The notes beneath the pieces are model-generated. The model was given only the letters and a program-made list of their open reading frames with translations. It did no database searches and was not told where the DNA came from. A stretch of DNA of 51,644 nucleotides, from contig PLCB01000061.1 in the NCBI GenBank assembly GCA_003134695.1, positions 1 to 51,644 on the forward strand, written 5' to 3'. The DNA is from Candidatus Zemynaea palustris (GTDB lineage: Bacteria; Vulcanimicrobiota; Vulcanimicrobiia; Vulcanimicrobiales; Vulcanimicrobiaceae). Below, piece after piece: positions 10,000-45,160 of this stretch (its first letter is position 1; each line of letters begins with the position of its first letter). A program made the position numbers and the translations under genes.

Positions 10000-10809
10000 A
10001 TGCTGCGCCGAACGCTCGCTACGATCGTCGCCGGAACAATGCTCGCGAGCCTAGCGTGCTCGACGCGTGTCTTTGCTTCAGCCAGTGGCCAGGCGGCAAT
10101 GTCGTGCCCCACGATCTCCTTGTTGGCAGCCTATCGCCACTATGACACGTATGTCATTGCGCTCGGCGCGGCCGAGCCGCTCACGTTCGCGACGCATGTA
10201 GAACTCGCCACCGACCAGGTGGTCGCGATCTACGCGCTCCCTTCGGTCGTGCTCGACCGGCAGACAGTCGACCCGACGATGCTATACCGCTCCGGCCCGA
10301 TCGTCCTGAACGCCCCGCACGGTTCCCTCATCTCGCTTGCGGCGATCGTGCAGCCCCCCAATGGCCGCCAATGTGAACCTGCGACGCGCAACCTGCGCGC
10401 GTGGGACGATCAGGGCCTCTACCAATTGATTCCGATAACGTCGATCGAACAAAAGATCGATTCTCAATTAGCCGTGGAAACCACACCTGCGACGCCGATC
10501 CTCGAGCCGTCGGCTCATCGCGATGGCGGGCCGCCGGCCGATTGCAAGATCCCCAACCGGGAGGCACGGGTGCTGCGCCAAACATATTTCGCGCCGTCGA
10601 CCAAGGCGTTCGGCACGGTCATCGTCAAGGTCAGCATCGCCGAGACGGGGGCTGTAACGTCCGCCGTCATCTATAAATCGGGCGGGAATGCGGCTCTCGA
10701 CCGCGCGGCGCTCGAGGGCGCACGTGCATCGCTTTTTTCAGTTTCGGTCGTCAACTGTATCCCGACGGCGGGTTCGTATCTCATGAGAACGGATTACACG
10801 TCAAGCTGA
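10000..10809 (+). CDS. Exported protein with TonB C-terminal-like domain
   Basis: The 269-residue product has a signal peptide (MLRRTLATIVAGTMLASLAC), possibly a lipoprotein signal with LASLAC. Residues about 30-140 form an unrecognised beta-rich domain. The C-terminal 90 residues (AFGTVIVKVSIAETGAVTSA, then YKSGGNAALDRAALEGARAS) match the TonB C-terminal fold: GxVxVxVxIxxxGxVxxxxVxxSSGxxxLDxAAlxaxrxxxF. There is no proline-rich spacer or N-terminal anchor typical of true TonB, so it is probably a stand-alone domain of the periplasm rather than an energy transducer. Confidence 0.7.
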   Translation: MLRRTLATIVAGTMLASLACSTRVFASASGQAAMSCPTISLLAAYRHYDTYVIALGAAEPLTFATHVELATDQVVAIYALPSVVLDRQTVDPTMLYRSGPIVLNAPHGSLISLAAIVQPPNGRQCEPATRNLRAWDDQGLYQLIPITSIEQKIDSQLAVETTPATPILEPSAHRDGGPPADCKIPNREARVLRQTYFAPSTKAFGTVIVKVSIAETGAVTSAVIYKSGGNAALDRAALEGARASLFSVSVVNCIPTAGSYLMRTDYTSS

Positions 10810-10968
10810 CCGGATGAGGTCCTGCGTCTCAGCAGCCTTACCGTGCATCTGCTAGACGGAGGTCACATCCGTTAATCGTAGGGCGCTTCGGCATTACGGC
10901 CCGGCCGCCTAAGCCGGAATGTTAACGGAACACCCCTTCACTCAACGATCTCGAGGAAAGAGTAAACC

Positions 10969-15560: not shown

Positions 15561-15640
15561 CTACCCGCGAACATTCCGCGCCACTTGCAACGCGGTCACG
15601 ATGAAAGCAACCCCGGCGTAAAAGAAGCCATGAGCGCGTG
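15561..15640 (-). pseudogene. Short membrane-protein fragment
   Basis: Read on the minus strand the bases give HSRAHGFFYAGVAFIVTALQ then VARNVRG and a stop. This looks like the last membrane helix of a lost protein. The frame cannot be extended into a plausible gene because it runs into the flavoprotein gene on the other strand. Confidence 0.3.
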
Positions 15641-16810
15641 AGTGACCTTCCGGTAACCAGCGCTCGCGCCGATCACGCGTTTCCGACATTAACGCCGGAA
15701 CAGATTCGTCGCATTACCCCACACGGTCGGATGCGTGCGATTCAAAGAGGCGACGTGCTCTACGAGCCGGGAGACGCCGTCGTTCCGTTCTTCGTGGTTG
15801 TCGCCGGGGAGCTCGAGGTCGTCCGCCTTTGGGCCGGGACCGAAACCCTGATCGCCACTTACGGCCCGGGGAAGTTCACGGGCGAAGTCAACTCTCTCTC
15901 GGGTCGCCCCGCCATTTTGCGGTTGCGCGTCTCGCAGCCCGGCGAGGCGATCGAGCTCGACCGTCAACAGATGCAGGCGTTGTTGCAGACCGACGCCGAG
16001 CTCGGCGAGATCTTGGTGCGAGCGTTCATTCTCCGCCGGGTCGAGCTAGTGGCGGCTGGTATGGGCGACGTCGTGCTCGTTGGGTCCACGCATTCCACCG
16101 GTACGCTCCGAATCAAAGAGTTTCTGATGCGCAACGGCCATCCCTATTCCTACATCGACCTCGAGCGGGATCCTGACGTACAGAAACTCCTTGAAAGTTT
16201 CCACGTTGCGTCCGGCGAGATACCCGTGGTGATCTGCCGTGGCCAGCTCGTTCTTCGAAATCCGACGAATCAGGAAATCGCGGACTGCCTTGGCTTTAAC
16301 CAGACGGTCGACCAAACGCAGATGCGCGATGTGGTCGTCGTCGGCGCAGGTCCCGCGGGATTGGCCGCAGCCGTGTACGGCGCATCGGAGGGACTCGACG
16401 TCCTGGTGCTGGAGACGAACGCGCCGGGCGGTCAGGCCGGTTCCAGCTCTCGCATCGAAAACTACCTGGGATTCCCCACTGGGATTACCGGGCAGGAGCT
16501 CGCGGATCGAGCCTTTACCCAAGCGGAAAAGTTCGGCGCACAATTGTTGATGGCGAAAGGTAAACGGCTCTGGTGCGACCGCAAACCAAACATCGTCGAA
16601 GTCGACAACGGCGCCCGCATCCCGGCGCGTGCCGTCGTGATTGCCACCGGGGCCGCATATCGAAGGCCACAGCCGTTCTTGCTAGAAACCGGCGTGCCGG
16701 GCGTATTTGCGGTCGGCGACGTGCGCGGCGGCAGCGTCAAACGTGTCGCATCCGCCGTCGGCGAAGGGTCGATCGCAATCTCCTTCGTTCACCAAGTACT
16801 GCAAGAATAG
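15638..16810 (+). CDS. cNMP-binding/thioredoxin-reductase-like flavoprotein lacking the NADPH domain
   Basis: Domains in order: cyclic-nucleotide-binding (about 15-130: RGDVLYEPGDAVVPFFVVVA, KFTGEVNSLSGRPA), a glutaredoxin-like linker (about 140-225: LRIKEFLMRNGHPYSYIDLE, EIPVVICRGQLVLRNPT), then the FAD domain (VVVGAGPAGLAAAVYGASEG, APGGQAGSSSRIENYLGFP). Near residue 342 the text jumps from VVIATGAAYRRP straight to QPFLLETGVPGVFAVGDVR. In the full family (about 550 residues) some 150-160 residues with the NADPH-binding GxGxxA fold lie between. The deletion is in frame, so the protein may be made but could not take electrons from NADPH in the usual way. Starts with GTG. Confidence 0.8.
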   Translation: MSDLPVTSARADHAFPTLTPEQIRRITPHGRMRAIQRGDVLYEPGDAVVPFFVVVAGELEVVRLWAGTETLIATYGPGKFTGEVNSLSGRPAILRLRVSQPGEAIELDRQQMQALLQTDAELGEILVRAFILRRVELVAAGMGDVVLVGSTHSTGTLRIKEFLMRNGHPYSYIDLERDPDVQKLLESFHVASGEIPVVICRGQLVLRNPTNQEIADCLGFNQTVDQTQMRDVVVVGAGPAGLAAAVYGASEGLDVLVLETNAPGGQAGSSSRIENYLGFPTGITGQELADRAFTQAEKFGAQLLMAKGKRLWCDRKPNIVEVDNGARIPARAVVIATGAAYRRPQPFLLETGVPGVFAVGDVRGGSVKRVASAVGEGSIAISFVHQVLQE

Positions 16811-44972: not shown

Positions 44973-44980
44973 TTAAGACG

Positions 44981-45160
44981 GTCACCTCGATAGGCGAGGC
45001 TCCTACACGACACACAGGCCGCTGCCCGGAAACGTCGAGAGACGCCAATTGGGTAGAACAGGCTCCGCCGAACCAAGGCGGCGCTCAAAGCGGCTGATCG
45101 TTCCGGCGATCTACGGCGTGTAGTGCCGAAGCTTGATGCGATTGAGTCGTGACACGCCTT
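44981..45160 (+). ncRNA. M-box (ykoK) magnesium riboswitch
   Basis: The leader contains the conserved M-box core in order: ATAGGCGAGGCTCCTACACG, then CAGGCCGCTGCCCGGAAACG, TCGAGAGACGCCAATTGGGT, and farther on GTGTAGTGCCGAAGCTTGAT. These match the known GGTGAGGCTCCTA, GCTGCCC-AAACGTC-GACGCCAATGGGT and GTGC-AAAGCTC elements. The M-box folds when magnesium is high. Here an intrinsic terminator (45176-45207) follows, so high magnesium should stop transcription of the two genes downstream. No other riboswitch class shares this core. Confidence 0.9.

Follow-up and report, generated by a model that had tools for sequence, protein, structure and literature searches.

The window, a stretch of 51,644 nucleotides from the assembly of Candidatus Zemynaea palustris, carries on its forward strand an open reading frame (15638-16810) for a cyclic-nucleotide-binding (cNMP), thioredoxin-reductase-like (TrxR-like) protein that has lost its NADPH domain through the in-frame absence of 489 bp. 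We consider it probable that this architecture arose when a horizontally transferred gene for an NAD(P)H-dependent flavoenzyme recently underwent an illegitimate deletion, and that the resulting product is probably inactive.

The frame begins with GTG at 15638, ends with TAG at 16808-16810 and is open throughout, giving a protein of 390 aa whose layout was delineated from Pfam matches and alignment with full-length homologues. Its GC3 (0.72) is like that of the neighbouring genes, which encode a CAAX protease, a PNPOx-like protein and proteins without a Pfam match. Farther along the window, positions 44979-45153 (+) hold an M-box (magnesium) riboswitch (RF00380; 120 bits, gathering score 44).

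All four parts of the protein are read from the forward strand. The cyclic-nucleotide-binding domain (residues 33-119; 15734-15994) matches PF00027 at 47.4 bits against a cut-off of 27.5. The glutaredoxin-like linker that follows (residues 146-222; 16073-16303), delimited by a weak PF00462 match, the alignment and a table of cysteines, had been called intact in the first-pass annotation; it keeps Cys200 and Cys217 as the full-length relatives do, but its PF00462 score of 15.8 bits lies below the Pfam cut-off of 22.9, and a CxxC motif was found neither in the window protein nor in the aligned full-length relatives. The first FAD segment (residues 223-344; 16304-16669), recognized from a PF07992 piece and PDB matches, bears the motifs GAGPAG (236-241), GGQAG and IATGA, and the end of the second FAD segment (residues 345-390; 16670-16807) includes VPGVFAVGDVRGGSVKR. 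Pyr_redox_2 (PF07992) is accordingly matched in two pieces, the larger spanning residues 231-344, and TrxR chains in the PDB align as two blocks that flank their unaligned NADPH domain (for example, 7aaw residues 3-136 and 269-305).

The best relative in the searched genomes, in genome G041 (contig C9, locus L160), belongs to another family of the same class as the window genome and encodes a full-length protein of 553 aa (counted from ATG) with 87% identity. BLASTN against this locus returned two pieces: window positions 15639-16670 correspond to 9252-10283 of L160, and 16670-16810 correspond to 10772-10912. The intervening gap in G041 measures exactly 489 bp, or 163 codons, so that the reading frame is kept. 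At the protein level, identity in the two pieces is 87% (345 residues) and 93% (46 residues), far above chance. The joint thus falls between codons 344 and 345 (16669-16670), where the two BLASTN pieces share a single base, C at 16670; microhomology is limited to this 1 bp, and no repeats of at least 10 bp were found at the joint borders. The residue run to the left of the joint is ...VVIATGAAYRRP and that to the right is QPFLLETGVPGVFAVGDVRGGSVKR....

Coordinates, Pfam matches, PDB blocks and the G041 alignment together agree with the first-pass annotation that the frame at 15638-16810 encodes a cNMP/TrxR-like protein with an NADPH-domain loss that keeps the frame. That annotation had placed the joint at about 16663 and estimated that 150-160 residues were absent; the joint and the in-frame loss stand, with the position now set to 16669/16670 by BLASTN and the number of residues to 163. 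It had also suggested alignment with full-length homologues, in which G041 proved collinear on both sides of the exact gap.

The 163 residues missing from the window protein extend in G041 from RLENLARFEGAG to ASKWPLAR. About 123 of them constitute the linker and NADPH domain, including GGGNSAGQAA. The remaining residues, approximately 40 in number (GAPNTRWLDGCVALDEKGFIKTG...WPLAR in G041), belong to the second FAD segment if domains are assigned as is classical for E. coli TrxR. Because these residues disappeared too, the cut does not lie at a domain boundary, and the earlier picture of a clean NADPH-domain loss with an intact C-terminal FAD segment needs correction. The deletion also removed Cys369 and Cys478 (G041 numbering), which do not vary among the 13 aligned full-length members; they are two of the five subfamily-invariant cysteines. 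The window protein has cysteines only at positions 200, 217 and 313.

The joint is private to the window genome among the sequences searched, which comprised 149 genomes of the phylum, one per species, together with plasmids. The query was matched in 46 of these 149 species-level genomes, and the match was unbroken across the joint only in the window genome; no match through the joint was obtained in any other genome, either among the 117 of the class or among the 149 of the phylum. In close relatives the match is interrupted near residues 343-350, mostly within open frames of approximately 550-600 aa, and close subfamily members with long open frames retain the NADPH domain. A few relatives, G110 and G073 among them, have shorter frames, which start at the end of a contig or locus. 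Plasmids were sampled along the ranking (60 records); where both ends of the query were matched, the match was split in two, and those that took in the cNMP domain extended over about 1.5-1.66 kb, as expected for full-length genes. A search of the literature for TrxR-like proteins without an NADPH domain found nothing.

Within the window genome itself, no second copy was detected, the only related sequence being the canonical TrxB (C45) at 37% identity over 118 residues. Relocation of the NADPH segment to another site in the genome was rejected, as a search with the lost segment recovered only the canonical TrxB and weak other matches and no displaced copy. A scan of the genome contigs for the joint pattern TGA...VPGVFAVGD was likewise set aside: it gave at least 120 matches, those inspected being full-length or unrelated flavoproteins, and the pattern is unspecific because matches contained a second TGA before the GD motif or were out of frame.

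Comparison of the window genome with G041 points to gene transfer. The two copies of the gene are 87% identical, versus 64% for the TrxB proteins of the same two genomes, and no flanking genes are common to both loci within the 9-kb flanks compared. Phylogenetic analysis grouped the window sequence with that of G041 with 100/100 support, the deeper forks of the tree being unsettled, and no copy was found in the sole other genome of the genus compared (74% complete). Given the high similarity to the copy of another family and the lack of common flanks, horizontal transfer of the gene, in either direction, is likely.

To characterize selection, we compared the window gene with its G041 counterpart. 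The overall dN/dS is 0.18, with values of 0.31 for the cNMP domain, 0.14 for the linker, 0.12 for the first FAD segment and 0.09 after the joint. When changes were polarized with 12 other homologues, the window branch showed 26 nonsynonymous and 33 synonymous changes and the G041 branch 21 and 31 (Fisher p = 0.71). No second lesion, premature stop or excess of amino acid changes was found in the window frame. Were the gene neutral along 20% of its branch, the probability of 26 or fewer nonsynonymous changes would be 0.045, and lower still for larger fractions; if the deletion caused a neutral state, that state therefore accounts for no more than some 20% of the branch that separates the gene from its split with the G041 copy. 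The equality of changes on the two branches implies a recent event if the gene was silenced by it. The selection data fit both of two situations: a deletion of recent date, or continuing constraint on the shortened protein.

The AlphaFold2 models, built with 21 homologues from loci found by DNA search, are both of middling confidence, with a mean pLDDT of 77 (short protein) and 79 (a full-length homologue). Residues 339-347 at the joint fall below 50, as does an FAD loop at about residues 274-285 in the short and full-length models alike. The predicted FAD part (residues 224-390) aligns with TrxR structures at Z scores of up to 22.4, and predicted residues 229-390 align with 2cvj at Z 20.0 (152 residues, rmsd 2.2, sequence identity 30%), a structure that Foldseek places 11th. 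The predicted model keeps the TrxR FAD fold, a predicted fold being no proof of stability.

Placed among known systems, the window protein shares the order of cNMP domain, glutaredoxin-like linker and FAD domain with the cNMP-TrxR family (NCBI: cyclic nucleotide-binding domain-containing thioredoxin-disulfide reductase). It carries the family's cNMP domain (PF00027) and GxGxxG FAD domain (PF07992) and, like the full-length relatives aligned, has no CATC-type CxxC; it differs in lacking the NADPH domain with its GGGxxA motif. On sequence grounds, it is a deletion derivative of this family and not a full member. In L004 (G047), a full-length relative otherwise intact, the first Gly of GxGxxG is replaced by Cys at residue 240 (ICAGPGG). 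The TIGR01292 score of the window protein, 116.5 bits, falls short of the curated cut-off of 343.45, and the full-length relatives L072 and L003 are also under this cut-off (215 and 212 bits); the CxxC redox centre, a TIGR01292 trait, is absent from the window protein. The canonical TrxB of the same genome has a homologous FAD domain but, unlike the window protein, a full NADPH domain with CATC and no cNMP domain.

The one cNMP-TrxR family member assayed is ATII-TrxR, a 552-aa enzyme from a Red Sea brine metagenome for which either NADPH or NADH supports the reduction of DTNB and thioredoxin (PMC6544261). On the basis of a model, the authors of that study propose two redox centres, Cys206-Cys223 and Cys376-Cys467 (PMC6544261). 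The spacing of the first pair (17 residues) equals that of Cys200/Cys217 in the window protein, and by numbering via Variovorax-type relatives, the ATII sequence itself being unaligned, the first cysteine of the second pair would correspond to the deleted invariant cysteine of EAxLC. The codons of Cys200/Cys217 lie at 16235-16288 in the window; the pair is invariant in 14 close subfamily members and absent in most Bradyrhizobium-type relatives. Since the NAD(P)H site is absent, the window protein presumably cannot work as ATII-TrxR does.

A natural precedent for a TrxR FAD domain without an NADPH domain, as in the window model, is the TTHA0370 type (PDB 2cvj and 2ywl; approximately 180-200 aa). 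Proteins of this type have neither cNMP domain nor linker, in contrast to the 390-aa window protein with both, and constitute a separate family that is not derived from the window gene. FAD-only relatives of about 185-200 aa that match Thermus TTHA0370 (2cvj; E 1.6e-29) occur in five genomes of the same class (G041, G044, G045, G047 and G052; loci L175, L176, L177, L178 and L179). Ahead of the GD motif, these natural relatives retain a hairpin of approximately 15 residues, which the window protein lacks; the window deletion took more of the FAD domain than they have lost.

We propose that the ancestor was a full-length cNMP-binding, TrxR-like NAD(P)H:FAD oxidoreductase of about 553 aa, most likely obtained by horizontal transfer, and that a single recent illegitimate deletion of 489 bp, in frame and with 1-bp microhomology, occurred in the window lineage. 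This event would have eliminated the NADPH domain entirely, together with two invariant cysteines and a stretch of approximately 40 residues in the second FAD segment. The product would be unable to accept hydride from NAD(P)H and hence inactive as a reductase; judged from its sequence, its NAD(P)H-dependent disulfide reductase activity is probably lost. The gene would then be a pseudogene at an early stage, with its frame still readable, and may continue to yield a non-catalytic remnant consisting of the cNMP domain and part of the FAD fold. Of the two explanations that the first-pass annotation had offered, a recent deletion in a decaying gene is the better supported in its first half, through the 87% identical full-length relative, the 1-bp microhomology and the private joint. 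Its second half is not borne out, and decay can have just begun at most, because there is neither a second lesion nor an excess of amino acid changes.

Two observations weigh against this preferred reading and lend some weight to a protein still in use. One is the intact frame with its low omega (0.18 overall, 0.09 after the joint), also expected of such a protein; the other is the alignment of the predicted FAD domain to TrxR (Z 22) and to FAD-only TTHA0370 (Z 20). A functional flavoprotein without an NADPH domain is nevertheless unlikely in our estimate; it would act as a redox switch gated by cNMP, still binding both FAD and the nucleotide, with ferredoxin, flavodoxin, a thiol or the linker Cys200/Cys217 as electron donor in place of NAD(P)H. 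The undamaged and conserved frame, the intact FAD motifs with a TrxR FAD fold kept in the model, the natural occurrence of FAD-only TrxR relatives (about 185-200 aa, 2cvj type) in the same class, and a Cys200/Cys217 pair that is invariant in the close subfamily and spaced as Cys206-Cys223 of ATII-TrxR (PMC6544261) are all consistent with function; they are offset by the deletion of approximately 40 FAD-domain residues, the missing hairpin, the singleton status among 149 genomes and the lack of a recognizable partner gene adjoining the frame. Without CxxC, moreover, a donor role of the linker would rest on the Cys200/Cys217 pair alone. The other explanation of the first-pass annotation, a new FAD protein that receives its electrons from the linker or another partner, is conceivable but weak, given the absent CxxC and the lost FAD residues. 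We see a small chance of a working FAD-only protein of any kind, and a smaller one of a newly born cNMP-gated FAD protein whose NAD(P)H site disappeared in a single step and which draws on another donor, perhaps via Cys200/Cys217.

An assembly or strain-mixture artefact, in which the cell's genome has the full-length gene and 489 bp were dropped, or the contig derives from a minority strain, is also rather improbable. The species is represented by a single assembly in 61 contigs, and the joint is seen in no other genome. The first-pass annotation had named a joint confined to this assembly as a refuting outcome, and among the phylum genomes searched, one per species, the joint is so confined; this would be expected of a private event and of an error alike. 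On the other side, the gene lies 15.6 kb inside a 58.8-kb contig, the missing segment is absent from the other contigs, and completeness is 96.7% with 0.03% contamination. The usual repeat-mediated collapse was rejected, as it cannot make a joint with a 1-bp overlap and no repeat of at least 10 bp on either side, and an assembly error is less favoured for the same reason.

If the product is inactive, as we consider probable, the window allele records an ordinary recent deletion and cautions that in-frame domain loss alone does not equal a new protein. Should the protein work, it would exemplify a one-step natural change from a flavoenzyme with two dinucleotide domains to an FAD-only protein, the sort of transition from which TTHA0370-type proteins may have arisen. 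The full-length family, in which a cyclic-nucleotide sensor is fused to a TrxR-like enzyme, occurs on plasmids and in several phyla and is little studied, and it may merit more attention than the window allele.
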